Origin: Acidimicrobiales bacterium
Lineage (GTDB): Bacteria; Actinomycetota; Acidimicrobiia; Acidimicrobiales; Iamiaceae
DNA: 36,976 nucleotides
Assembly (NCBI GenBank): GCA_025463365.1
Contig: JAOBWM010000151.1
Location: forward strand, 1 to 36,976
Direction: 5' to 3'
Shown: piece after piece, positions 2,067-23,478 of the stretch
How the letters are laid out: the number at the start of each line of letters is the position of its first letter
Position numbering within the stretch: the stretch's first letter is position 1
Position numbers and translations under genes: made by a program
Notes under the pieces: model-generated
What the model was told of the DNA's origin: nothing
What the model saw: only the letters and a program-made list of their open reading frames with translations
The model's database searches: none

Positions 2067-2798
2067 TCATGACGCACGTGCTTCCACGTGCGGCGCCGAC
2101 GTCGCACCGGGCGGGCCCACGAGGGGCTCGCACCGGGCGCCGTCGAGCAGCGTCCATTGGGTGCGTCGCCGCACGTGGCCCTCTTCGCCGTCGATGCCGA
2201 GCAAGGCGATGAGCTCGCCGATGCGCAGGCCTCGAGGCTGGGTGGCCAGGTGGGCGTCGATCTCGGTGCCGGCGTCGGTGGGACCGACGACCGTCAGGTC
2301 GAGCAGGTACGGGCGGACGTCGTCGGTGACGTCTTTGCCCTTGCGCTGGCGGGTGACCACCAGCTCAGGTGCGGCGAGGCACCGGCCGATGGCCGAGGCC
2401 ACCGTCGCGGGATCCACACCGCGGATCTCGATCCGCCACTCGCAACTCGTGACCGCCTGCTGCAACGACATGGCGTTGCCGGCGATCTCCACCGCCGCGG
2501 TGACCTCGATGCCCGTCGGCAGCAATGCCGACAACTGGGGTACGAGGGCCACGAGCGCGTCGGGCGACGGCAGGTCCGCCGCCTCGTCGTCGAGGTCGAT
2601 GTCGATGTACTCGGCCAGCGACTCGTGGCCGGTCGACAGGGCCAGCCCGAAGTGCACCTTCGGGTGCGGGGAGAACCCCTGGGAGTAGGCGATCGGCAGG
2701 CCGGCGCGACGGATGACCCGCTCCCAGACGCGGGCGATGTCGCGGTGGCTGGTCCAGCGCACCTTGCCGAGCTTGGTGAAACGCACGCGGATCCTCAT
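2067..2798 (-). CDS. Radical SAM-linked protein (TIGR03936/DUF2344 family)
   Basis: 243-aa protein of the family regularly encoded beside, or fused to, the TIGR03960-type radical SAM protein; biochemical function unknown. The N-terminus (RFTKLGKVRWTSHRD, then IAYSQGFSPHPKVHFGLAL) is the conserved signature region. No membrane segment or signal peptide is visible. Its ATG overlaps the stop of the upstream radical SAM gene in an ATGA, so the two are translationally coupled, and rne follows 15 bp later. That context suggests an RNA- or translation-related role, but this is inference from neighbours only. The family call is from remembered signatures, not a search. Confidence 0.85.
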   Translation of the reverse strand: MRIRVRFTKLGKVRWTSHRDIARVWERVIRRAGLPIAYSQGFSPHPKVHFGLALSTGHESLAEYIDIDLDDEAADLPSPDALVALVPQLSALLPTGIEVTAAVEIAGNAMSLQQAVTSCEWRIEIRGVDPATVASAIGRCLAAPELVVTRQRKGKDVTDDVRPYLLDLTVVGPTDAGTEIDAHLATQPRGLRIGELIALLGIDGEEGHVRRRTQWTLLDGARCEPLVGPPGATSAPHVEARAS

Positions 2799-4756
2799 CG
2801 GCTACCGGTACCCACGGAAGCGGCCGGGCGGCTGGGAAGGAGCTTGACGGGCACCTCGCCTCCCACGGCGAGGTCCTGTCCGGTGCCCTGCGAGCCGCCA
2901 GCGGGCGGGACCGCGGAGGCGACGACGTGCTCGATGCCGTAGCCCGTACAGGCGCCGCAGTCGTAGCACGGCGTCCAGCGGCAGTCCTCGAGCCCGACCT
3001 CGTTCAGCGCGTCCCGCCAGTCCTGCCAGAGGAAGTCCTTGTGGAGCCCGGCAGAGAGGTGGTCCCAGGGCAGCGCTTCGTCTTCGTGGCGGTGCCGGTA
3101 GACGAAGTCCTCCTCACGAAGGCCGGCGCGCTCCAGCGCCTGCAGCCACAGGTCGAGGTCGAAGTGCTCGGACCACTCCTGGAACGTTCCCCCGTGGCGC
3201 CACACGTCCTCGATCACCACACCGAGGCGCCGATCGCCTCGGCTGGCCAGCCCCTCGGCCATCGTGGCCTTCGGGTCGTGCCACTTGAGCTTGATGCCGT
3301 GGTCGCGGCGCAGCTCGTCGCGCAGCAGGTAGATCTTGCGTTGGAGCTCCTCGCGCGTGTTCTGGCCGAACCACTGGAACGGCGTGAACGGCTTCGGCAC
3401 GAAGCCACCGAGCGAGACCGTGACCGACGGGTTCTTGTGGTACTCCCGGCCGATCGCGACGCAGTTGCGAGCGAGGGTGGCGATCCCGAGCGTGTCCTCG
3501 TCGGTCTCGGTGGGGAGGCCGGTCAGGAAGTAGAGCTTCATCCGCCGCCAGCCCTGCGAGTAGGCCGAACGCACGGCGGCGTAGAGGTCCTCCTCGCGGA
3601 TCAGCTTGTTGATCACCTGGCGCATGCGCCACGTGCCCGCTTCCGGGGCGAAGGTGAGGCCGGTGCGTCGGGCCTTCTGGATCTCGCCGGCGATGCCCAC
3701 GGTGAACGCGTCGACCCGCAGCGAGGGAAGCGAGACCGAGATCTGACCGCCGCAGGACGGGTCGTTGACGGTGTCGCGGACGACCTGCTCGATGCCGGAG
3801 AAGTCGGCCGTGGACAGCGACGTGAGGGCGACTTCGTCGTAGCCCGTGCGCTTGAGGCCTTCGGCCACCATCGTGCGGACCTGATCGGCCGGGCGTTCGC
3901 GCACGGGGCGGGTGATCATCCCGGCCTGACAGAAGCGGCACCCACGGGTGCAGCCCCGGAAGACCTCTACGTTGAGCCGGTCGTGGACCACCTCGGTGAG
4001 CGGCACCAGTTGCTGCTTGGGGTACGGCCACTCGCCGAGATCGGCGATGGTGCGCTTCTCGATCGTGGCCGGGGCCGCAGGATCGTTCGGCACGACCTCG
4101 ACGAGCATGCCGTCCAGGAACACCGCGTCGTACAGGGCCGGGACGTAGATGCCCTCGATGCCGGCCAGGGCCCGCAGGACCGAGATCCGGTCCGGCTTGC
4201 CGGCCACCTTCCACGCCGCCACCACGGTGGTGATCTCCGACACGACCTCTTCGCCGTCGCCGAGGACCACGAAGTCGACGAAGTCCGCGATCGGCTCGGG
4301 GTTGTAGGTGCAGTGGCCGCCGACGCCGATCAGCAGGTCGGTGGGGGCACGATCGGCACTGCGGACCGGACATGCGGCCAGGTCGATCATGTTCACGAGG
4401 TTCGTGTAGGTCAGCTCGGCGGAGAGGTTGAAGGCCAAGACGTCGAAGTCGGCCGCCGCCCGGTGGCTGTCGACGGAGAACAACGGCAGACCCGCACCGC
4501 GCAGCTCAGCTTCGAGGTCCGTCCAGGGGGCATAGGTGCGCTCGGCGACGCCGTCGGGCTGCTCGTTGATGATCTCGCACAGGATCTGCAGGCCCTGGTT
4601 GGGCAGGCCGATCTCGTAGGTGTCGGGGTACGCGAGCAGCCAGGCGGCCGAATCCGGCTGGTGCTCAGGGGTTGTGGCCCCGTCCTCGCAACCGATGTAG
4701 CGCGCCGGCTTCTGCACCTTGGCGAGCAGTGGCTCAAGCTGGTTCCAGACGGACAT
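2795..4756 (-). CDS. B12-binding/radical SAM protein (TIGR03960 family)
   Basis: 653-aa iron-sulfur enzyme of unknown substrate. Residues 1-250 resemble a cobalamin-binding-like N-terminal domain (LAYPDTYEIGLPNQGLQIL near 41-60, GVGGHCTYNPEP near 144-155). The radical SAM cluster motif CxxxCxxC is C269, C273 and C276, within GCTRGCRFCQAGM. The TIM-barrel core runs to about residue 480 (GLTFAPEAG, KLYFLTGLPTE). The C-terminus holds a second Cys set (CRWTPCYDCGACTGYG), likely another cluster or zinc site. It is first gene of a unit with the TIGR03936 partner (ATGA overlap) and rne. No Shine-Dalgarno precedes the ATG, but a TAGAAT box lies 9 nt upstream, suggesting a leaderless mRNA. The reaction cannot be inferred from sequence. 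Confidence 0.9.
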   Translation of the reverse strand: MSVWNQLEPLLAKVQKPARYIGCEDGATTPEHQPDSAAWLLAYPDTYEIGLPNQGLQILCEIINEQPDGVAERTYAPWTDLEAELRGAGLPLFSVDSHRAAADFDVLAFNLSAELTYTNLVNMIDLAACPVRSADRAPTDLLIGVGGHCTYNPEPIADFVDFVVLGDGEEVVSEITTVVAAWKVAGKPDRISVLRALAGIEGIYVPALYDAVFLDGMLVEVVPNDPAAPATIEKRTIADLGEWPYPKQQLVPLTEVVHDRLNVEVFRGCTRGCRFCQAGMITRPVRERPADQVRTMVAEGLKRTGYDEVALTSLSTADFSGIEQVVRDTVNDPSCGGQISVSLPSLRVDAFTVGIAGEIQKARRTGLTFAPEAGTWRMRQVINKLIREEDLYAAVRSAYSQGWRRMKLYFLTGLPTETDEDTLGIATLARNCVAIGREYHKNPSVTVSLGGFVPKPFTPFQWFGQNTREELQRKIYLLRDELRRDHGIKLKWHDPKATMAEGLASRGDRRLGVVIEDVWRHGGTFQEWSEHFDLDLWLQALERAGLREEDFVYRHRHEDEALPWDHLSAGLHKDFLWQDWRDALNEVGLEDCRWTPCYDCGACTGYGIEHVVASAVPPAGGSQGTGQDLAVGGEVPVKLLPSRPAASVGTGSR

Positions 4757-4980: not shown

Positions 4981-6171
4981 TCAGGTGAAGCGGCGCATGT
5001 GGACGCTGAGGACCAATCCCATGCTCAGGAACATCGTCAACAGGGCGGAGCCGCCGTAGCTCACGAACGGGAGGGGGATGCCGGTGATCGGCATGATGCC
5101 CATGGTCATCCCGATGTTCTCGAACGCCTGGACGAGGAACATCACCATCACGCCGGTGCACAGGAGGGTCCCGAACTCGTCGCGTGCCAGCTGAGCGGTC
5201 CGCCACACCCGCCAGACGATCACCCCCAGGAGCGAGACCAGGCCCGCTGATCCCACGAATCCGAGCTGCTCGCCCACCGCCGTGAAGATGAAGTCGGTCT
5301 GCTGCTCGGGCACCTTGCTGAGGCGGGTCTGGGGCCCCTTGAACAGGCCCTTTCCCCACACGCCTCCCGAGCCGATGGCCAGCTTCGCCTGCTCCAGGTT
5401 GAAGCTCGCATTGTCGGACCCCTTGGAGACGTGGTCGTTGTTCTGGTCGATGAACGTGGTCAGGCGGGCCTTCTGGTACGTCTGCAGCACCCCCGATGTG
5501 AGCACCACCGTCGTCCCGAGGATCGCGACGAGGGCGAGGGCCCCGAGGAGGCGCGGCCGAACGCCGACCACCAGGAGGAGGGCGAACGAGACGGCCACCG
5601 AGACCAGCGTCGTGCCGAGGTCGGGCTGCAACATCACGAGGAACATGGGCACGCCGCACACGCCGAGCAACATGGCGACGCGGGTGTTGTCGAGGTCGCC
5701 TCGGAACTGCGAGGCCAGCCCAGCAAAGCCGATGATCAGGCCGAGCTTGGCCAGCTCTGACGGTTGGAGCTGGAACGGGCCGATCTGGAACCAGCCCTGG
5801 GTGCCGCTGACCTTCGAGCCGATGCCGGGAACGAGCACCATCACGAGCAGCAGCAGGCTCCCGCCGTACACGAAGGGCCAGTAGTCCCGCAGCTTGCGGT
5901 AGTCGATCAGGGCCACCGCGGCCATCAGGGCGCCGCCGATGACCAGGAAGACCAGCACCTTCTTCAAGAAGGTGGCGTTGTACGGCTCGGTCGGTCCGCG
6001 GGTGGCGCTGTAGACCATCACCGCCCCGAACAGGCTGACGGCGGCGATGCACATCACCAGCACCACGTCGACGTGGCGGAACGGTGAGGCCGGGTTGCGC
6101 CGGAAGTTCGCCATCGGCGGCCGGACCCGATGGCGCCCGTTCGCGGGGCGAGGACGGTAGGTGGTGGCCAT
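4981..6171 (-). CDS. rodA: Rod-shape SEDS peptidoglycan glycosyltransferase RodA
   Basis: 396-aa multipass membrane protein that polymerises lipid II glycan strands with its partner class B PBP during cell elongation. SEDS motifs are present: GWFQIGPFQLQPSELAK, VMLQPDLGTTLV with the conserved Asp of the family active site, KVPEQQTDFIFTAVGEQLGF, and MPITGIPLPFVSYGGSALL near the C-terminus. About ten hydrophobic segments are visible. An Arg-rich cytoplasmic N-terminus of about 30 residues precedes the first membrane segment. The ATG overlaps the mrdA stop as TGATG, so RodA and its cognate PBP2 are translationally coupled. FtsW is the paralogue alternative, but the mre context favours RodA. Length is typical. 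Confidence 0.95.
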   Translation of the reverse strand: MATTYRPRPANGRHRVRPPMANFRRNPASPFRHVDVVLVMCIAAVSLFGAVMVYSATRGPTEPYNATFLKKVLVFLVIGGALMAAVALIDYRKLRDYWPFVYGGSLLLLVMVLVPGIGSKVSGTQGWFQIGPFQLQPSELAKLGLIIGFAGLASQFRGDLDNTRVAMLLGVCGVPMFLVMLQPDLGTTLVSVAVSFALLLVVGVRPRLLGALALVAILGTTVVLTSGVLQTYQKARLTTFIDQNNDHVSKGSDNASFNLEQAKLAIGSGGVWGKGLFKGPQTRLSKVPEQQTDFIFTAVGEQLGFVGSAGLVSLLGVIVWRVWRTAQLARDEFGTLLCTGVMVMFLVQAFENIGMTMGIMPITGIPLPFVSYGGSALLTMFLSMGLVLSVHMRRFT

Positions 6172-8309
6172 CAGTCGCTTCCCGCAGTGCTGATGCCGTT
6201 GGTCGCCGCCGCGACCTGGGTCGGGTCGATGGCACCCAGGGCCGGGATCATGAACGAGTCGATCGCGTGCGACGCGATCGGCTCGAGGATGAGCCGGATC
6301 GTGGGAGCTGCGGCGTTGGCACCCGAGCCGGCGCCTTCGAGCACCGCGCTGGCGGCCCATGCCGGGTCGGCGCCGAGCTCGAACCCGACGAACAGCGAGT
6401 TCTCCGGCTTCTTGTTGTTCAGCTTGTCGAGGCCGGTCTGCGCGGTGCCGGTCTTGCCAGCCAGCGGGAGCGACGAGAACGGGAAGTTCTGGAACGGCAG
6501 CACGGCGGTGCCCGAGTCGGAGGTCACCGAGTGGTCGACCACACCCTGGAACCCTGCGAGGAACGTGTCCCGAGCCGTGCCCCAGTCGATCCGACGGATG
6601 AGCTTGGGCTTGAACTGGCGAAGGATCTTCGTCGGCTGGCGGGCCGGGGTGGTGTGATCGAGGACCCCGGGCGTCCACAAGTTGCCCCCGTTGGCGAGCG
6701 ACGCGTAGGCGTTGGCGATCTGCAGCGGCGTCGCCGTCACCTTCTGGCCAATGGCGAGGTCGGCGCTGTAGCCGCCGCGCCACCTGCCCGCCGCCTTGGC
6801 CTCGGCGGGATCGTTGCCATAGTTGCCGGGGTCGGCCTTGAAGAGCGCCGTGGCCGTGTCGGCCTCGGTCTTGGGCGTGGGCACGAGCCCGGGAGACTCG
6901 GCCGGGAGGTCGATGCCGGTGCGCGAGCCATACCCGAGCTGCTTGATGTAGCGCTGGAGCCCGTCGTCGCCGATCCGCCCCCGCTGCTTCCAGGCGATGT
7001 CGCCGATCCGGTAGAAGTACACGTCGCTCGAGACGGTGAGCGCCTTGCGCAGGTCGACCGTGCCGTGAGCGGCGTGGCCGGCGTTCCGCTTCAAGCAGCC
7101 CGGCTGCGAACCGGGGCACAAGCGGTACTCGCCGGGGTCCGAGATGGTGTCCTGCGGGGTGATGAGGCCCAGGTTCAGCGCGGCATAGGCCGTCGCCAGC
7201 TTGAAGGTGGAGGCTGGCGCGTAGGCGCCGGCGAGCGCCCGGTTGATCAGCTTCGAGACCGGCCGGGCCTCGGGGGCCATCGCCTTGATCTCGGCATCGA
7301 CGTCCTTGCAGGAACCGGCAGGGTCGAGGCCCTGGAGGTCCCGCCAGACCGGACAGCTGATGCCACCCACGAGGTCGGCGGGGTTGTAGGTCGGGAACGA
7401 TGCCATGGCGCGCACCTGGCCGTTGCGCGGGTCGAGCACCACCACCCCGCCGGACTGTGCCGGCGTGTGGCTGCCCCGCGCCGCGACCAACCGACCCTGC
7501 AGGGCCGCCTCCGCCTTGTACTGGACCCTGGCGTCGATCGACAGGTAGAGGTCGTCACCCGGCTTGGGCTCGACGCGATCCGAGGTGATCTCGCCGACCA
7601 CGCGGTTGCGGCGGTCGACCTCGTACACCCGGCGACCCGGGGTCCCGCGCAGGTCCTGCTCATAGGTCGCCTCGACGCCGGCCTTGCCGACCTCGTCGGT
7701 CTGGACGTACGGCTTGGTCTTGTCGTTGTCCTTCGACAGCTTCTGCCACTGGGTGTCGCTGAGGGGACCGACGTAGCCGAGGAGGTGTGCCGCCAACGAG
7801 CCGTAGGGGTACCGGCGCACGGTCTGGCGGTCGACCGACACCGTCGGGTACTGGTCCGCCTCCTCGCGGAGGATGATCTCCTGGTCGTAGGTGATGTCGT
7901 CGGCCACGGGGACCGGGCGGAAGTGGCTGAACCGAGAGTCGTTCAGTCGGGTGCGCAGGAACTTCGTGGTGACAGCCTGGTCGGGCGTCCGGCCCTTGCT
8001 GAGGGTGGTCGCCAGCTTGGTGAGGAGGTGCCGCTGGACCTCGGGCTTCAGGTCCATGTAGTCCTGCCACGAGATGCTGACCACGATCGACTCGCGGTTG
8101 TCGACCATGACGATGGCGTTGCGATCCAAGATGCGCCCGCGTGGGGCGGGGATCACCACCGTGCGGGTGGCGTTGCGCGCCGCCTGCGCGTCGAGCGACG
8201 GGCCCTCGACCACCTGCAGGAACCAGAGGCGAGCGAAGAGGGCTCCGAACAGGGAAAGGGCCATGACGGCCACGAGCCCGAGCCGATGGCGCCCGTCGTC
8301 ACCGCTCAT
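6171..8309 (-). CDS. mrdA: Penicillin-binding protein 2 (elongation transpeptidase)
   Basis: 712-aa class B PBP that crosslinks lateral-wall peptidoglycan with RodA. One N-terminal membrane anchor (residues about 9-33) is followed by the PBP dimerisation domain starting at APRGRILDRN. The transpeptidase domain carries SxxK as STFK (Ser367, Lys370), SSD near 427 in the SxN position, which accepts Asp as in other PBP2 proteins, and KTGT at Lys619. Two Cys pairs lie in the catalytic half (around CPVWRD/SCKD and CPGSQPGC) and could form extracellular disulfides. The ATG at 8309 was chosen because it makes an ATGA overlap with the mreD stop; upstream frame extension is only Pro/Arg-rich shadow. 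It lies between mreD and rodA. Confidence 0.95.
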   Translation of the reverse strand: MSGDDGRHRLGLVAVMALSLFGALFARLWFLQVVEGPSLDAQAARNATRTVVIPAPRGRILDRNAIVMVDNRESIVVSISWQDYMDLKPEVQRHLLTKLATTLSKGRTPDQAVTTKFLRTRLNDSRFSHFRPVPVADDITYDQEIILREEADQYPTVSVDRQTVRRYPYGSLAAHLLGYVGPLSDTQWQKLSKDNDKTKPYVQTDEVGKAGVEATYEQDLRGTPGRRVYEVDRRNRVVGEITSDRVEPKPGDDLYLSIDARVQYKAEAALQGRLVAARGSHTPAQSGGVVVLDPRNGQVRAMASFPTYNPADLVGGISCPVWRDLQGLDPAGSCKDVDAEIKAMAPEARPVSKLINRALAGAYAPASTFKLATAYAALNLGLITPQDTISDPGEYRLCPGSQPGCLKRNAGHAAHGTVDLRKALTVSSDVYFYRIGDIAWKQRGRIGDDGLQRYIKQLGYGSRTGIDLPAESPGLVPTPKTEADTATALFKADPGNYGNDPAEAKAAGRWRGGYSADLAIGQKVTATPLQIANAYASLANGGNLWTPGVLDHTTPARQPTKILRQFKPKLIRRIDWGTARDTFLAGFQGVVDHSVTSDSGTAVLPFQNFPFSSLPLAGKTGTAQTGLDKLNNKKPENSLFVGFELGADPAWAASAVLEGAGSGANAAAPTIRLILEPIASHAIDSFMIPALGAIDPTQVAAATNGISTAGSD

Positions 8310-8818
8310 CGGGCGAACAACGGGTGTCGGCGGCGGTCGCGCTGATCGGTCCGCGCCCAACGGAGGGCTCGGATCGCGACGGGGGCAAGGACGGCGTTGA
8401 GCACGGCCACGACCACCAGGATGGCCGACAGGGGGGGTCCCTCGAACGACGCCTCCCCCACCACGGTCCCGATCAGGGCGTAGGCCAGCATGCCGAGCGC
8501 GGATGCCGCCGCTGCGACCGCCGGGCCGATCCACCACGAGGTGCGCAGCACGCCCCCGCTGACGGTGCCGACGCCATAGCCGACCAACGTGTAGACGAGC
8601 GCCGAGAGCCCGAGCGGGGTGGTGAGGACGATGTCGAAGGCGACGCCGGCGGCGAAGCCGACGATGGCGCCGCGCTCGGGGCCCGCGACGAACCCGGCGG
8701 CGATGGCCAGGAGGATCATCACGTCAGGCCGGGCGCCCTCGTAGGAGAACTGCGAGAAGAGACACACCTGCAGGACGAGTGTCACCAGGACCACGGCGGC
8801 CACGCGTGCCGCACTCAT
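8306..8818 (-). CDS. mreD: Rod shape-determining protein MreD
   Basis: 170-aa integral membrane protein with about five hydrophobic segments, starting with ARVAAVVLVTLVLQVCLF. It is the membrane component linking MreC to the elongasome. The family is poorly conserved in sequence; size, hydrophobicity, the typical PDVMILLAIAAGFVAGPERG segment and position between mreC and mrdA support the call. It overlaps both neighbours by 4 bp (ATGA on each side), implying coupled translation. Confidence 0.9.
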   Translation of the reverse strand: MSAARVAAVVLVTLVLQVCLFSQFSYEGARPDVMILLAIAAGFVAGPERGAIVGFAAGVAFDIVLTTPLGLSALVYTLVGYGVGTVSGGVLRTSWWIGPAVAAAASALGMLAYALIGTVVGEASFEGPPLSAILVVVAVLNAVLAPVAIRALRWARTDQRDRRRHPLFAR

Positions 8819-10731: not shown

Positions 10732-10827
10732 CTGGGGGCCCTCCACAGGCCGGACAGCTCGGTCGTCGGGAGGCTACGAGACGTCTTCGACCCCGACAAG
10801 GCGGCCCACCCGTGCGCTCCGGGCGGC

Positions 10828-13865: not shown

Positions 13866-15146
<1,281 letters not shown>

Positions 15147-15168
15147 GGTGTCTGACCCCCTGAGGTCC

Positions 15169-15903
15169 TCAGTTGGCGGCCGTGATCGGGCCGCTCTTGT
15201 CGGCGAACTCCCGGGCGGAGATCACCTCGTCGATGATGCCGTATTCCTTGGCCTCATCCGCGGACAGGACGAAATCCCTGTCCGTGTCCTTGTTCAGCTT
15301 CTCTTTCGGCTGCCCGGTATGTTCCGCAAGGATCCCCTCGAGGAGATCACGCATCCGGAGGATCTCCTTGGCCTGGATCTCGATGTCGCTGGCCTGGCCG
15401 CCACCGCTGGCATAGGGCTGGTGGAGCAGGACCCGGGCGTGGGGAAGGGCGAGGCGCTTGCCCTTGGTGCCCGACGCGAGCAGCACGGCGGCGGCCGATG
15501 CGGCCTGGCCGAAGCAGATCGTGGTGATGTCGGGCTTGACGTACTGCATCGTGTCGTAGATCGCGAACAGCGCCGTGATGTCGCCGCCGGGGCTGTTGAT
15601 GTAGACGTTGATGTCCTTGTCGGGGTTCTCCGACTCCAGGTGCAGCAGCTGGGCGCACATGAGGTTGGCGATCGTGTCGTCGATCGGCGTACCCAGGAAG
15701 ATGATGTGCTCCTTGAGGAGCTTGGAGTACAGGTCGAACGCCCGCTCCCCCCGGTTCGTCTGCTCGACGACGGTGGGCACGAGGTAGTTGGAGCCCCGCA
15801 GGTGGGCGGTCGGATCGGGGCGGTCGCGCAGGCCGAGCATGGCGTCGGTCCAGGCCTCCGCGCCGATGGGCACGGACTCGTAGCGGTCGGGGGAGAAGGT
15901 CAC
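15169..15903 (-). CDS. clpP: ATP-dependent Clp protease proteolytic subunit ClpP
   Basis: 244-aa serine peptidase subunit forming the proteolytic barrel of ClpXP/ClpCP. The triad is Ser136 (GQAASAAA), His161 (LLHQP) and Asp210 (DTDRDF), with spacings matching E. coli ClpP. An N-terminal segment of about 45 residues precedes the conserved core ([19 protein letters not shown]), longer than most ClpP N-termini and likely a propeptide or flexible extension. The GTG start overlaps the tig stop in GTGA, which fixes it. Actinobacteria usually have two ClpP paralogues; only one is here. Confidence 0.97.
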
Positions 15904-17279
15904 TCGTCGTCCTCGCTGGCCACGTCGCCAGGAGCGTCCGTGCCGTCGTCTTCGGTGGGCTCGGGCTCCACCTCGAGGCTGGCCCGGTCGATCACGTTGC
16001 CACCCTCATCGACCAGCTCGACGTGCTCGATGAGCCATTCGAGGGCCTTGCGGGTGCGCAGGTCGGAGCGTACCGCCGACACCTGCCCGTTGCGTTCGAG
16101 TTGCTTGCGGACCTGGGCGGTCTTCTGCCCGACCCGCTCGGCGACGGCGGCGTACTCGGCCTCGAGGTCCTCGTCGGACACCTCGATGGCCTCGGCGGTG
16201 GCAACGGCTCGCAGGGCGAGGTCGACCTTGACGCCCTGGGCCGACGTTTGGCGCAGTTCGGTGACGAACGCCTCCTGCTCCTGGCCGGTCGTCGCGAGGT
16301 ACTGCTCGATGCCGATCCCCTGCGCCTCCAGGCGCATGGCGAGGTCCTCGAGGCGCTGCTGCATCTCGTTGGAGATCAACGCGTCGGGGGCGACGTCGTC
16401 CTCGACGAGGTCGGCGAGGGCCTCGGCCGTCTTCTGCTGGATCTGCATCTGGGCCTGGACCTTCTTGACCATGCCCAGGCGCTTGGTGAGGTCGGCGCGG
16501 AGCTCGGCGATGGTCTCGAACTCGGAGGCCTCGGCGGCGAAGGCGTCGTCCTCGTCGGGCAGGACCTTCTCCTTGACCTCCTTCAGCAAGATCTTGAAGG
16601 TGACCGGATCCTCGTCGGGATCCGGGTGGTCAGCGGTGAACTCGAGGATGTCGCCGACCTTGGCCCCGGCGAGCTGCTCGTCGAGCTCGGGGACCACGGT
16701 GGCGCTGCCGACCTCGTAGAGGTAGTCGTCCGCGGTGAGCCCGTCGACGGCCTCGCCGTCCTGGGAACCGGCGACGTCGATCGTGACGTGGTCTCCGGTC
16801 TGGGCGGGCCGCTCCACGGGCTCGAGCTTGGCGAACCCCTCGCGGAGGCGGTCGACCCGGGAGGTGACCTCCTCGTCGGCGACGTCAGGCGAGTCGATGG
16901 TGACGCGCAGCGAGTCGTAGCCACCGAGGTTCAGCTCGGGACGGATCTCGACCACGGCGTCGAAGGCGACGTCGCCGTCTTCCTTGCCAGCCGTGATGTC
17001 GATCTCGGGCGGCGCGATGGCGTCCACCTCGTGCTCGGTGACCGCCTCGGCGTAGTAGCCGGGCAGGGCGTGCTCGAGTGCGTCGCCGCGTGCGGCCTCG
17101 ACCCCGATGCGGGCCTCGAGGAGGCGGCGCGGAGCCTTGCCGGGACGGAAGCCCGGGAGGCGAACCTCGAAGGCGATCCGGCGGAAGGCGGCGTCCACCT
17201 CCTTCTCGAACTCGGCTCCGTCGACCTCGATGGACAGCTTGACCTTGTTGCCCTCGAGGGGCTCGACCGTTGACTTCAT
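15900..17279 (-). CDS. tig: Trigger factor
   Basis: 459-aa ribosome-associated chaperone and prolyl isomerase. The ribosome-binding loop signature GFRPGKAP lies in the N-terminal domain, followed by an FKBP-like PPIase domain ([17 protein letters not shown]) and a helical C-terminal domain (from about 250) that ends in an acidic tail ([22 protein letters not shown] region). The start is taken at ATG 17279, giving the standard [19 protein letters not shown] four codons upstream (17291) is an alternative. A TACAGT box ends 10 nt before the ATG, implying little or no leader. It is first gene of tig-clpP-clpX and is divergent from the mauE-like operon, with both promoters in a 109-bp gap. Confidence 0.97.
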
Positions 17280-17388: not shown

Positions 17389-17925
17389 GTGTCCCCCCTT
17401 GCCGGCCCGCTCTTCGCCGCGGCGCTCCTCGTGGCCCTCGCCGGCATCGCCAAGCTCAGCCGGCCCGCCGCGGCACGGGTCGCACTGCGGACCGCGGGGC
17501 TGCCCAGCACCGCAGTGGTCGTCCGGGCGCTCGGGGCGGGTGAGCTCCTCCTGGCCGGCGTCGTGCTCGCCGTCGGGGGCCGGCTGGGCGGTGCCCTGAT
17601 CGCCGCGGCGTACCTCGCCTTCGCCGCCTTCGCCGCGTTCCTCGCCAGCAGGAGCCGCCGGGCGGTGCCGTGCGGGTGCTTCGGATCGGGCAGCGCGCCC
17701 GTGGGACCGCTCCACGTCGGCGTGAACCTCGCGCTGGCCGCGGTCGGCGCGGCCGCGGTGGTGCGGCCCTCCGACGACCTCGTCTCGGTTGCCCGCGCCA
17801 CCCCACTCGCCGGCATCCCCTTCGTCGGGTTCACCGTGCTGCTCACCTGGTTGCTCCTGGTGCTCCTCACGGCCCTGCCCGAGCTCCTTGCCGCCGCCAA
17901 GCCCACCAAGGCGGCGGCGCGGTGA
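17389..17925 (+). CDS. MauE-like membrane protein (DoxX/MauE fold)
   Basis: 178-aa protein with four or five hydrophobic helices (about 3-20, 42-62, 67-86, 105-120, 145-170). Its Cys95-Gly-Cys97-Phe-Gly sits in a short loop after the third helix. CxCFG is the hallmark of MauE, the membrane protein needed, with MauD, for correct disulfide formation and stability of the methylamine dehydrogenase light chain. The GTG was chosen from the leaderless -10 box just upstream. It overlaps the next gene by GTGA. In context it is probably an electron-transfer or disulfide-handling partner for the downstream thioredoxin-like protein and the Cys-rich Tat protein. Its redox role here is inferred; other CxCFG DoxX-like proteins have unrelated jobs. 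Confidence 0.8.
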   Translation: MSPLAGPLFAAALLVALAGIAKLSRPAAARVALRTAGLPSTAVVVRALGAGELLLAGVVLAVGGRLGGALIAAAYLAFAAFAAFLASRSRRAVPCGCFGSGSAPVGPLHVGVNLALAAVGAAAVVRPSDDLVSVARATPLAGIPFVGFTVLLTWLLLVLLTALPELLAAAKPTKAAAR

Positions 17926-18722
17926 CCGTCCTCGTCGTGGTCGAAGGGGTGGTGATCGCGGTCCTGGCGCTGCTCGTCGTCGGCCTCCTGCGCAGCCACG
18001 CCGAGATCCTCAAGCGCCTCCACGACCTCGGTGCCGGCATCGAAGGCGAGCCGGGGCGGTCGTCGACCATCAGCGAGGCGCACCGACCCGGGAGCCCCGG
18101 CTACCCCTTGATGCCGCAGATGCCGAGCCCGCCCGACCGCGAGGAGTTCGGGGGCGCCGCCGACGTGGTGGGCCTGAGCCCGGGCGGACAGGAACAGGTG
18201 TCGGTGCGCATCACCGGCGTGGAGCACGACACGATCGTCGCCTTCCTCTCCAGCGGGTGCATCACGTGCCAGAAGTTCTGGGACGCGTTCCGCAAGCCCC
18301 GCAAGCTCGGGCTGCCGTCGGGCGCCCGTCTCGTGGTGGTCACCAAGGGCCCCGACGAGGAGAGCGCGTCCGCCGTGGCCGGGCTGGCCCCGCCCGGCAT
18401 CCCCACGGTCATGTCGAGCGAGGCCTACGCCGACTACGACATCCCGGGATCGCCGTACTTCGTGTACGTCCATGGCCCGTCAGGTCGGGTGCGCGGCGAG
18501 GGCACCGGCCCCGATTGGGACCAGGTGTCGTCGCTGCTGTCCCAGGCCACCGGCGATGCTGACCTCGCCGCGACGCTGGCATCCCACGTGGTGCCGAAGC
18601 CCGATGCCGACGCCGAGCGCGAAGCCCGCGTGGACCGCGAGCTGTTCGACGCAGGCATCCTCCCCGGCGATCCGTCGCTGCTCACACCACCGCCCGAGCA
18701 CCCGGGGCACGCGCATGGGTGA
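17922..18722 (+). CDS. Membrane-anchored thioredoxin-like protein, MauD-like
   Basis: 266-aa protein with one N-terminal membrane helix (about 2-22) and a linker of some 70 residues. A thioredoxin fold follows: active-site Cys113-Ile-Thr-Cys116 in FLSSGCITCQKFW and a probable cis-Pro178 before the last strand (GSPYFVYVHGPSGRV). The C-terminus is an acidic, Pro-rich tail. The GTG start overlaps the mauE-like stop (GTGA). MauD-type proteins act outside the membrane as disulfide reductases or isomerases during light-chain maturation. Pairing with a CxCFG protein and a substrate with about 22 cysteines makes a maturation role likely, but this is by analogy. A generic TlpA/ResA function is the alternative. 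Confidence 0.8.
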   Translation: MTVLVVVEGVVIAVLALLVVGLLRSHAEILKRLHDLGAGIEGEPGRSSTISEAHRPGSPGYPLMPQMPSPPDREEFGGAADVVGLSPGGQEQVSVRITGVEHDTIVAFLSSGCITCQKFWDAFRKPRKLGLPSGARLVVVTKGPDEESASAVAGLAPPGIPTVMSSEAYADYDIPGSPYFVYVHGPSGRVRGEGTGPDWDQVSSLLSQATGDADLAATLASHVVPKPDADAEREARVDRELFDAGILPGDPSLLTPPPEHPGHAHG

Positions 18723-18760
18723 GGCGGCGGCGGCGGTCCGTCCGCGATGATGGACGCCTC

Positions 18761-19240
18761 ATGAAGTTGCAGGCGCACGGCATCGAGACGGACCTCCCGC
18801 CCGGTTGGGAGGGTCGGATCGCCCTCCGGAACCCCCCGACCGGCCACACGAGGGCGCTCGGCACCACCGGTGAGGTCCCGAACCCCGTGGTGCACCTCGC
18901 CAACTTCGCGCTCCCCGAGGACCGGGGCGACTTCGGGTCCGGGGCGGTCGACCTGATGGGCGAGCAGCACGTGCTGGTGGTCCTGTTCGAGTACGGCCCC
19001 GAGTGCGCCGGCACCGCGCTCTTCCGCCGCAAGGGCATCCCCACCAAGCTGACCCCGTCGATGTTCTCGGGCTCGGCGCTCCAGCGGACGCTGCCCGATC
19101 AGGCCGGCTGCCAGGTCTTCTTCACCGCTGCCGGCCGGGCATTCTGCTGCTACGCCGTGCTCGGTCGTCAGGCCGCGGCGGCCCGCGTCCTGCCCCAGGC
19201 CAACGCCACGCTCGCCGCCACGAAGATCGGACCGCGATGA
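18761..19240 (+). CDS. Uncharacterised 159-aa protein of the mau-like operon
   Basis: Not recognised. It starts at the ATG giving MKLQAHGIETDLPPGWEGRI; an in-frame extension to 18719 exists but looks like Arg-rich noise. No signal peptide, no membrane helix and no metal motif; three of its four cysteines are in the C-terminal half (AGCQVFF, AFCCYAV). The LPPGWEGRI opening and beta-rich pattern resemble small soluble domains of unknown function. It lies 38 bp after the thioredoxin-like gene, and its stop overlaps the ATG of the Tat protein (ATGA), so it is co-translated with that protein. It may be a cytoplasmic chaperone for the Tat substrate before export; this is speculation from position. 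Confidence 0.75.
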   Translation: MKLQAHGIETDLPPGWEGRIALRNPPTGHTRALGTTGEVPNPVVHLANFALPEDRGDFGSGAVDLMGEQHVLVVLFEYGPECAGTALFRRKGIPTKLTPSMFSGSALQRTLPDQAGCQVFFTAAGRAFCCYAVLGRQAAAARVLPQANATLAATKIGPR

Positions 19241-20928
19241 CCGGGCTCCTCACCCGCCGGCCCCGGGCCTCCGCCTCGACCCCGGCCTCGGCCGCGGCCT
19301 CGGCCTTGGCGCATGCCACCGCCGCCGTCGACCTCGACCTCGACCTCGCGGCTGACGGCATCCACCGCGACCCGGGCACCCACGATCCGATCGCCTCGGG
19401 CACCTTCACGCAACGCCTCGTGAACCGCGCCTCGTCGCTGCTCGGCGGCCGCACCAGCCGGCGCTCGTTCCTCACCAAGACGGCGGTGCTCGGCTCCGCG
19501 CTGGCGGTCGGGCCGATCGACTTCATCCTCAAGCCGGGCACCGCGTACGGCTACCTGTGCGGCTCGTGCGGCGATGGTTGGACCGCCTTCTGCTGCACGA
19601 TCAACAGCGGCCGCAACTCCTGTCCGCCCAACAGCTTCATCGCCGGCTGGTGGAAGGCCGACAACGCGGCCTACTGCTGCGGCGCCGCCCGCTACATCAT
19701 CGACTGCAACGCGACCTGCCCCACACAGTGCTCGTGCCGTTGCGCCGGCGCCTCCTGCGACAACCGCCGCACGTGCTGCAACCAGTTCCGCTACGGCCAG
19801 TGCCACACCGAGATCGCCTGCTACGGACCGGTGGTCTGCCGGGTCGCCACCTGCACGCCGCCATGGCGCTACGACCCGAGCTGCACCACGTCGAGCGCCA
19901 CCGACAACAAGACCCGCGACCACGGCGCCCCCTGCCTCACCACCGACTGCGGCACCCCGATCGCCAAGAAGTACGCCGCCCTCGGTGGCGCGACCGGCAT
20001 CCTCGGCCCGGTCGTCGAGGCCGAACGGGCGCTGGCCGACGGCCGCGGCCGGCGAGCCCGCTACCAGAAGGGCAACATCTACTGGACCTCGGGCACCGGG
20101 GCCCACGAGGTCCACGGTGCGCTCCTCACCGAGTACGGCGCCCAGGGCGGCTCCACCGGCATCCTCGGCTACCCGACCTCAGACGCGATCACCACGTCGG
20201 ACGGCTCGGCCAAGTACAACAACTTCGAGGGCGGCCGGATCTACTACCGCGGATCGAACGGCACGTTCACCGTCCCCAAGCCCTTCTTCGCCAAGCACGA
20301 GAGCGTTGGGGGCGTGCACGGGATCCTCGGTTACCCGAAGGTTGACGTCCGCACGTCCTCGGACAAGCGGAGCACGTTCCAGGACTACGTCGGCGGGCGG
20401 ATCTACCGGCGGGGTTCCAGCCTGGTCGAGATCCACGGCGCGGTCTTCACCCTGCACGAGTCCATCCAGGGCGTCCACGGCGTGCTCGGCTACCCCGTCA
20501 ACGACCTGGCCTCGTGCGGGGACGGCAAGGGCAAGGTCGAGTGGTTCGAGCACGGGTTCGTCTGGTACTCGCCGGCGACGGGCGCCCACGCCCTCTGGGG
20601 CAAGACGGCTGACGGCTACCTCGCCGTCGGCAACGTCGAGAGCTACCTCGGCTACCCGACCAGCGAACCCCAGGCGGTCGGCGACGGGCGCGGCACGTTC
20701 GCCACCTTCGAGAAGGGCCGGATCTACTCGAGCACCACCACCGATGGCTTCGACGTCCACGGGGCCATCCTCACGGCCTGGCTCGACACCTACGGCGGCC
20801 CGCAGGGCTCGCTCGGGTACCCGCTGGGCAACCTCGATCCCCCGGGCACCACCGGCGGCCGGTTCCAGCAGTTCGAGGGCGGCAAGCTGCGCTACAACAC
20901 CAACGGCACGGTCACCCTCGTTCCCTGA
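19237..20928 (+). CDS. Tat-exported Cys-rich protein (methylamine dehydrogenase light-chain-like) with six LGFP repeats
   Basis: 563-aa exported protein. Residues 1-71 are a long Ala-rich leader. SRRSFL (74-79) plus a hydrophobic stretch (82-95) form a Tat signal, with cleavage probably near residue 104. Residues 107-238 hold about 22 cysteines (FCCTINSGRNSCPPNSF, IIDCNATCPTQCSCRC, RRTCCNQFRYGQC), a pattern like the disulfide-knotted MauA light chain. From about 243 to the end there are six LGFP repeats (GILGYPTSD, GVHGILGYPK, GSLGYPLGN and others), which bind actinobacterial cell wall glycans in known proteins. By my remembered alignment the first TTQ tryptophan matches Trp138/139, but the second falls on Ala194 (EIACYG), so canonical TTQ is doubtful. 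It is last gene of the operon, with ATGA overlap. Confidence 0.8.
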   Translation: MTGLLTRRPRASASTPASAAASALAHATAAVDLDLDLAADGIHRDPGTHDPIASGTFTQRLVNRASSLLGGRTSRRSFLTKTAVLGSALAVGPIDFILKPGTAYGYLCGSCGDGWTAFCCTINSGRNSCPPNSFIAGWWKADNAAYCCGAARYIIDCNATCPTQCSCRCAGASCDNRRTCCNQFRYGQCHTEIACYGPVVCRVATCTPPWRYDPSCTTSSATDNKTRDHGAPCLTTDCGTPIAKKYAALGGATGILGPVVEAERALADGRGRRARYQKGNIYWTSGTGAHEVHGALLTEYGAQGGSTGILGYPTSDAITTSDGSAKYNNFEGGRIYYRGSNGTFTVPKPFFAKHESVGGVHGILGYPKVDVRTSSDKRSTFQDYVGGRIYRRGSSLVEIHGAVFTLHESIQGVHGVLGYPVNDLASCGDGKGKVEWFEHGFVWYSPATGAHALWGKTADGYLAVGNVESYLGYPTSEPQAVGDGRGTFATFEKGRIYSSTTTDGFDVHGAILTAWLDTYGGPQGSLGYPLGNLDPPGTTGGRFQQFEGGKLRYNTNGTVTLVP

Positions 20929-21009: not shown

Positions 21010-21083
21010 GCGGGTGTAGCTCAATGGCAGAGCCTCAGATTTCCAATCTGATGACGAGGGTTCGATTCCCTTCACCCGCTCCA
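21010..21083 (+). tRNA. tRNA-Gly (anticodon TCC)
   Basis: Full cloverleaf of 74 nt. Acceptor GCGGGTG/CACCCGC, D arm GCTC/GAGC, anticodon stem TCAGA/TCTGA with loop TTTCCAA (anticodon TCC), and T arm GAGGG-TTCGATT-CCCTT. Discriminator T and CCA encoded in the DNA. Reads GGA and, by wobble, GGG. Confidence 0.95.
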
Positions 21084-23301: not shown

Positions 23302-23404
23302 GCCCTCGATCCTGCCCGACAGGCCGCAGCCGCTCGGAACCCGCCGACGGCCAGGCCCAGGCGCTGGTCGTCCGACGACTCTCATGTGTCGATCGTCCGG
23401 GAAG

Positions 23405-23478
23405 CGCCCTCGGCTGGATTCGAACCAGCGACCGTCGGATTAGAAGTCCGGTGCTCTATCCATCTGAGCTACGAGGGC
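23405..23478 (-). tRNA. tRNA-Arg (anticodon TCT)
   Basis: 74-nt cloverleaf on the minus strand. Acceptor GCCCTCG/CGAGGGC, D arm GCTC/GAGC, anticodon loop CTTCTAA (anticodon TCT), T arm GCTGG-TTCGAAT-CCAGC, discriminator G. The outermost anticodon-stem pair is a C-A mismatch. CCA is not encoded, unlike the nearby tRNA-Gly. Confidence 0.95.

Follow-up and report, generated by a model that had tools for sequence, protein, structure and literature searches.

The stretch of DNA analysed here, termed the window, comprises 36,976 nucleotides of contig JAOBWM010000151.1 from an Acidimicrobiales bacterium of the family Iamiaceae (assembly GCA_025463365.1) and contains a cassette of four overlapping or closely spaced genes, termed E, D, X and L. 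E and D are related to MauE and MauD, X belongs to no known sequence family and L is a cysteine-rich protein with a twin-arginine translocation (Tat) signal and C-terminal LGFP repeats. A homologue of MauF, termed Y, belongs to the same gene set. This set is conserved in many actinobacteria, where it seems to serve the export and folding of a protein that is dense in cysteines and often wall-tethered, by means of relatives of the Mau helpers of methylamine dehydrogenase. We consider it likely that the cassette provides an extracytoplasmic oxidative-folding pathway derived from relatives of MauF, MauE and MauD and repurposed for the wall-tethered, cysteine-dense L. L itself is in all likelihood a wall protein with a structural or redox role and not an amine dehydrogenase. 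In many relatives Y is, judging from its gene, very probably a selenoprotein with selenocysteine (Sec) at WSP[U/C]G.

Conservation of the gene set

The genes and their features are, in window coordinates:

17389..17925, + strand: gene E, polytopic membrane protein of the MauE family, 178 amino acids, with a CGCFG (CxC) motif and a match to PF07291
17922..18722, + strand: gene D, MauD-like thioredoxin-type protein, 266 amino acids, with a CITC motif and an N-terminus that is hydrophobic by eye
18761..19240, + strand: gene X, without known sequence family, 159 amino acids, with a predicted Mog1/PsbP-like fold
19237..20928, + strand: gene L (whole gene), putatively Tat-exported, cysteine-rich wall protein, 563 amino acids
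19453..19530, + strand: Tat signal of L, residues 73-98 (TSRRSFLTK...), TIGR01409 at 8.2e-4
19558..19950, + strand: Cys domain of L, residues 108-238, with 22 cysteines and the motifs GWWKAD, RYxxDC and FRYGQC; modelled with AlphaFold2
20002..20925, + strand: C-terminal LGFP repeats of L (PF08310), six stretches with approximate bounds, the best-scoring one at residues 256-308

An earlier note, made from the window sequence, had described these four genes, and all four reading frames are present; E and D overlap by 4 nucleotides, as do X and L. The start codon of E is the GTG chosen in that note, upstream of which the frame stays open further, and D starts with a GTG overlapping the stop codon of E. 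The MauE-like character proposed for the CxCFG protein is borne out by a match of E to Pfam MauE (PF07291; 1.3e-13, 51.8 bits against a cut-off of 27), and E48, Y71, C91, G92, C93, G95 and H105 are invariant in 23 aligned E sequences. D reaches no Pfam cut-off, nor was it shown to reach a curated thioredoxin cut-off; in agreement with its assignment as MauD-like, its family profile aligns with Paracoccus MauD (hhalign probability 95.4, E-value 2e-8, one comparison), including the CxxC motif, the two cysteines of which (alignment C111 and C114) are invariant in 24 aligned sequences. X, which had been left without an assignment, reaches no Pfam or NCBIfam cut-off. For L, the predicted features of Tat export, about 22 cysteines and six LGFP repeats were all recovered: in addition to the TIGR01409 match, 22 cysteines cluster between residues 108 and 238, with one more at 427, and PF08310 matches six stretches (7.7e-59, 196 bits against a cut-off of 22), while the Cys domain itself reaches no Pfam cut-off.

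The fifth member, Y, was overlooked in the earlier note. It is a membrane protein of 209-254 amino acids, its gene sits between D and X in many relatives, and its profile aligns with Paracoccus MauF over 168 columns, with the WSPCG motifs aligned (probability 98.9, E-value 2.9e-17); no NCBIfam model is over cut-off for the four Y members tested. Of 54 genomes known to contain L, 52 were used in searches for Y, SelA and SelB, the two left out (G175 and G379) having a TGA-type Y and a SelA match from the phylum-sample search. Y was found in 51 of the 52, and the exception, G004, is 79% complete. The window genome (G000) encodes its Y, a Cys-type one with WSPCG, on a different contig (G000:C58:27710-28372); SelA was not detected in this genome. 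With Y found, the full set consists of MauF-, MauE- and MauD-like proteins together with X and L. At the level of sequence, E, D and Y are homologous to MauE, MauD and MauF, and it is from this relationship that we infer their folding chemistry.

Linkage of these genes was followed across the phylum. L and X profiles identify the identical set of 31 among 396 sampled genomes, which is far beyond chance; in one of these, G379, the L match is a fragment of 32 residues only. At the level of gene neighborhoods, 108 distinct L loci were available, 56 of which are well flanked (at least 4.5 kb on each side). The co-occurrence in related genomes that the earlier note had expected was found, as E, D, X and L are all present in 52 of the 56. 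Since the four-gene set is kept while its order shuffles (EDXL 59, ELDX 18, DXEL 7 and other orders 3 among 87 complete loci), a shared function is indicated.

A scan of GTDB returned 254 relatives of L, and the labels of the best 80 of these were examined. All but one are actinobacterial and include Acidimicrobiia, Nitriliruptorales, Frankiales, Nakamurella, Kineosphaera, Piscicoccus and others. The exception (L157, contig CAJCIY010000052.1) is labelled Candidatus Melainabacteria and features a full EDXL set with a TGA-type Y, which probably reflects an error of binning or labelling, or else transfer. No relative of L was found in a plasmid collection. The genome YX2bin23 contains two L genes (L133:8001-8423 and L130); within the 16 kb read, none of E, D and X accompanies the L133 copy. 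Around the cassette of the window, probable clpX, clpP and trigger factor genes, assigned by eye from their translations, lie divergently just upstream on the minus strand (13866-17272), and ARAGORN places tRNA-Gly(TCC) downstream of L at 21010-21083 and tRNA-Arg(TCT) at 23404-23478.

The cysteine-rich protein L

In an alignment of 106 L sequences (the residue number in L is the alignment number + 95), W43, W44, R57, Y58, D61, F89, R90, Y91 and G92 are invariant in 106 of 106, as are nine cysteines (alignment positions 24, 34, 52, 62, 79, 94, 106, 111 and 121), and 19 Cys positions are kept in at least 70% of the sequences. The only other well conserved tryptophan besides W43-W44 is W115 (92 of 106, with Tyr in 11). 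An RRx[FLV]L motif occurs at most 45 residues before the domain in 96 of the 108 distinct loci. Tails are more variable: those resembling the LGFP tail of the window protein occur in 62 of 108 loci, the others being different sequences or lacking altogether, and L ends no more than 15 residues past the Cys domain in 8 of the 95 loci that are not at a contig edge. A profile search flagged an in-frame TGA as possible selenocysteine in L; this candidate was rejected, as the loci read (L106, L115 and L104) show an ordinary stop codon directly after the Cys domain.

The earlier note had assigned the Cys domain to the fold of the methylamine dehydrogenase light chain, and this part of its proposal is weak, while a Mau-like export and maturation cassette with a wall-tethered target is supported. 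None of 27 L members matches the light-chain family PF02975 at an E-value of up to 10; PF02975 likewise gave no match in the window genome, in a search whose control was also silent. Profile-profile comparison with the light chain yielded an hhalign score of 20.0, which did not exceed the control, 3 of 60 column shuffles scoring 20.5-21.2. Alignment with ten light chains was weak (probability 2.4, E-value 0.02), and so was that with two light chains from Thermomicrobium roseum (probability 19.7, E-value 0.0012, a single comparison run without control). PDB sequence searches with the L, D and X profiles gave nothing below an E-value of 0.3. The AlphaFold2 model of the Cys domain is of moderate quality (predicted local distance difference test, pLDDT, 74.9; predicted template modelling score 0.73), and Foldseek found nothing significant with it. 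When the model was re-aligned to 71 chains, nine reached Z values of at least 2, a level that may be due to chance; the seven entries listed are all aromatic amine dehydrogenase chains of 105-126 residues (Z 2.3-2.7, 67-72 aligned residues, 3.1-3.3 Å). Homology of L to light chains is thus weak on the level of sequence, and a light-chain fold is something that the low-Z model match perhaps hints at.

A map of L onto the light chain by cysteine spacing, drawn by eye with 12 cysteines, Asp76 and Trp108, was discarded, as shuffled gap orders equal it in 164 of 3000 (18 positions) and 354 of 3000 cases (21 positions). In this permutation test, the best-scoring map of the second half was not the one drawn by eye, and alignment to W108 is uncertain. 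A search for MauG-type proteins (CCP_MauG, PF03150), the positive control of which gave a signal, found none in the window genome and matches in 4 of 31 L genomes; the heavy chain (PF06433) was found in 0 of 31, in a search whose positive control was silent as well. The caution that L may not be an amine dehydrogenase, already voiced in the earlier note, is strengthened by the absence of MauG from the window genome and by the lack of any conserved tryptophan beyond W43-W44 and W115.

An unlikely alternative is a redox function of L based on another cofactor derived from the protein itself, e.g., a tryptophylquinone or a Cys-Trp quinone, at the invariant GWW motif, with the Mau helpers permitting the formation of this cofactor. 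Known MauF/MauE/MauD systems serve a quinone-bearing subunit, and nine invariant positions other than cysteines are more than a disulfide scaffold alone would need. On the other hand, the cassette has no recognisable MauG or accessory oxygenase, and the mapping of residues to the tryptophan tryptophylquinone site is uncertain given how often shuffled spacings did as well. Quite unlikely is a role of L in metal binding or storage, with its cysteines serving as thiolates that the Mau trio keeps reduced. DsbD/CcdA proteins usually carry reducing power outward and the many conserved Cys positions would suit such a role, but an exposed location in the wall favours oxidation and, in the relevant passages of PMC7794033, MauE is put forward as a factor in forming the disulfides of the methylamine dehydrogenase beta-subunit, the role of MauD being called unclear there.

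That L is, finally, a novel amine dehydrogenase subunit of the light-chain type, with the standard tryptophan tryptophylquinone (TTQ) cofactor, is very improbable, even though MauF, MauE and MauD homologues accompany it, the only structural entries listed at Z of at least 2 are aromatic amine dehydrogenase chains, a Trp pair and an Asp-Cys pair are invariant and the two T. roseum light chains align weakly. A standard TTQ dehydrogenase was rejected as leading interpretation because of the missing PF02975 match, the lack of MauG in the window genome and the lack of a clear second tryptophan: W115 is the only other well conserved one and falls after the structurally matched range 20-113, which makes a second TTQ tryptophan doubtful, although residue mapping is uncertain. 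The scarcity of MauG among L genomes and the heavy-chain result, with its silent control, point in the same direction.

The WSPxG site of Y

With any residue allowed to follow, the WSPxG site of Y is encoded with TGA in 62 distinct genes and with a Cys codon in 25; a stricter motif with GES, which favours the TGA type, gave 54 TGA and 2 TGT among 56. Kineosphaera limosa and Piscicoccus intestinalis are cultivated species with a Y of the TGA type. The in-frame UGA is followed by a hairpin resembling a selenocysteine insertion sequence (SECIS), and for this reason Y of the TGA type is regarded as very probably a selenoprotein. The segment N-terminal to the TGA is conserved (RSxWSP), and Cys replaces the TGA in relatives and in Paracoccus MauF.

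Occurrence of the Sec machinery follows the type of Y. SelA is over its curated cut-off in 30 of 30 genomes with TGA-type Y vs. 1 of 19 with a stop-free gene (G022), and SelB in 26 of 30 vs. 0 of 19. G246 and G322, in which the Y match misses the Sec site, were left out of the 19; G016 and G020, with SelA matches below cut-off (8e-4 and 6e-4), were counted as lacking SelA. The site was read in 15 of the 19 and is Cys in all of these, the other four being G007, G008, G021 and G023. Within the phylum sample, a SelA match was present in 25 of 25 genomes with TGA-type Y of the main family, in 26 of 28 with a more distant TGA-type Y and in 0 of 8 with stop-free Y, against a background of 235 of 396. 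Among the distant ones, the match in G257 is weak (2.4e-12) and the two genomes without match are 68% and 73% complete. For 7 of the 8 stop-free genomes, reading of the site showed Cys; this count excludes G322, G246, G341, G099 and G167 (site uncovered) as well as G271 (7e-4), and G158, which contains both Y types, was counted as TGA. In 10 of the 28 distant TGA-type genes the position of the TGA could be read, in all 10 at P-U-G.

The stem 3' of the TGA is formed by pairing of nucleotides 12-17 with 22-27. All six pairs are perfect in 52 of 62 TGA genes vs. 3 of 25 Cys genes, while synonymous resampling of the TGA set (300 trials) produced 7.07 perfect stems on average and 15 at most. Codon +8 is AGC in 62 of 62 TGA genes vs. 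3 of 25 Cys genes, which otherwise use other Ser codons, Thr or Ala; in D genes, AGC accounts for 37% of Ser codons. In seven distant genes with differing amino acids in this region the stem is preserved, a single C-G pair being changed to G-C; this compensatory-pair analysis used 55 TGA genes, duplicates having been removed on 30 instead of 60 nucleotides. Distant MauF-like genes at L226, L227, L228, L230, L231, L235 and L238 have a TGA at (F/Y)(S/G)P-U-G, with the hairpin GATGGT-ACCATC placed in the same register, and MauE-like and MauD-like matches were seen in six of these seven loci (not L226). In L138, L144 and L194, Y is of the Cys type and still features AGC at +8 and the SECIS-like stem, possibly as a result of recent changes from Sec to Cys.

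That the TGA is an ordinary stop codon, with translation restarting at an ATG four codons on, is scarcely credible: an ATG is indeed found at that codon in 61 of 62 TGA genes, but conservation of RSxWSP ahead of the TGA, its replacement by Cys in relatives and Paracoccus MauF, the AGC codon, the hairpin, the uniform presence of SelA and the occurrence of Ile instead of the presumed restart Met in the Cys-type Y of L188 all argue against it. Genes for UGA-type Y are likely annotated as truncated at the UGA. The catalogue of 2026 counts 119 selenoprotein families, and its Table 1 features no MauF-type selenoprotein, the nearest entry being TsoB (PMC13188914); 'MauF' and 'methylamine' appear nowhere in the main text of that article. 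The tables of PMC9312934 do not list a MauF-type selenoprotein either. As tabulated in PMC13188914, TsoB, resembling a rhodanese/DsbD fusion, is akin to Y as a Sec-containing DsbD-like protein and differs by two Sec residues and the rhodanese fusion, Y having one TGA and no rhodanese match. Among the papers listed in literature searches, the coverage of which left out most subscription journals, none dealt with a Sec-type MauF or with an E/D/X/L cassette.

A proposed folding pathway and its relation to known systems

In the pathway that we propose, X would hold newly made L in the cytosol and the Tat system, for which the signal is seen in the sequence, would export it. A membrane trio of Y, E and D would then oxidise and shuffle the disulfides of L, with Y acting as a carrier of the MauF type, similar to DsbD/CcdA and using the Sec or Cys of WSPxG, E as a MauE with CxC and D as a thioredoxin-like CxxC protein. 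The LGFP repeats, judging from their family, would fix L to wall glycan. X is proposed as a cytosolic chaperone of L on account of its strict co-occurrence with L, the apparent lack of an export signal (by eye) and the Mog1/PsbP-like predicted fold (pLDDT 94.6). Structural neighbors of X include entries for the Tse3-Tsi3 complex, BT_1490, LpqN, MTC28, PsbP, RseB, EagT6, which is a cytosolic chaperone, and Mog1.

Several observations weigh against this picture. Y lies outside the window, and in a more distant form it also occurs in 36 genomes of the phylum without an L match. Co-occurrence at the scale of the phylum covers X and Y, not D and E, and 4 of the 56 well-flanked loci deviate, L133 and L189 holding L alone and L139 and L145 being without a detected E. 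The fold match of X is moderate, its best Z of 6.8 being at a level that can be due to chance, and disulfides in L are assumed from the number and context of its cysteines. Regarding Sec in Y, SelB is not over cut-off in four TGA-type genomes (G012, G041, G397 and G406), the stem is imperfect in 10 of 62 TGA genes, by one or two mismatched pairs, and Rfam SECIS models at the gathering threshold gave no match in 7 loci. The SelA counts are moreover not independent, because on a quick tree of Y with 94 rows only about three changes account for the distribution of Sec and Cys, a single clade (support 99) comprising 23 Cys rows.

Among known systems, the mau cluster of Paracoccus denitrificans (L057) is similar in that MauF, MauE and MauD have homologues in the cassette, in the order of E, D and target, to which the window adds X, and in the Tat-type leader of a cysteine-rich target. 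It differs in several respects: none of heavy chain, amicyanin, MauJ and MauG could be recognised among the genes of the cassette, gene X is new, the target is not recognisable as PF02975 and has LGFP repeats, and the MauF-like gene is often of the TGA type or located elsewhere. A plasmid-borne cluster of T. roseum (L068; NC_011961, reverse complement of 473850-490068) combines cysteine-rich genes of the MauA-like kind with genes for MauE, a MauD-like protein and a MauF-like protein, the last of which has TGA at WSP-U-G. Its targets lack an LGFP tail and match a profile of the methylamine dehydrogenase light chain, and the 16 kb read contains no match to X. The MauA-like genes are located around 1953-2414, 2717-3166 and 7371-8312, with one near 5667-6596 that matches in two frames, and the in-frame TGA of the MauF-like gene near 10744; the gene table of this locus names one light chain and MauE only. 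T. roseum is not among the 62 TGA genes analysed above.

Transmembrane reductases of the DsbD/CcdA type (PF13386/PF02683) are related to Y insofar as, of four Y proteins compared with DsbD_2, one scores above the cut-off (8.1e-7), while the other three remain below it and Y is distinguished by an invariant Sec or Cys at WSPxG and by being kept together with MauE and MauD. L shares its C-terminal LGFP repeats with wall proteins of the Protein PS1 kind (6swz, 6sx4; its tail matches 6swz at 1e-27), from which it differs in that L carries the Cys domain and PS1 a mycolyltransferase domain. According to the relevant passages of PMC7794033, methylamine metabolism depends on MauE and MauD (citing van der Palen 1997), and homologues of both occur in Streptomyces clusters in genomes that showed no other mau orthologues.

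A second kind of Tat-exported, cysteine-rich protein, with the motif VCGQSG...CWYA[ST]GCCADGALKKICDCC, is encoded at L232:4601-5992, L233:4482-5990 and L239:4607-6004 beside distant TGA-type MauF genes, which feature a hairpin of their own by eye. On this basis, the Mau-type module may serve several targets. A further-reaching version of the pathway, in which a Sec-based MauF/MauE/MauD system matures an exported, often wall-tethered protein with a new protein-derived redox cofactor at the invariant Gly-Trp-Trp, is unlikely; if it were true, L would be distantly related to the light chains that bear quinones, but bound to the wall and with a cofactor chemistry of its own.

X and L constitute strictly linked protein families without a Pfam model, and the putative selenoprotein Y is not among the families in the catalogue or the NCBIfam models examined. 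MauF, MauE and MauD have been known as helpers of one enzyme subunit. Across the phylum, their relatives are kept together with one exported target and X, which makes a wider role of such helpers in the folding of cysteine-dense exported proteins testable.

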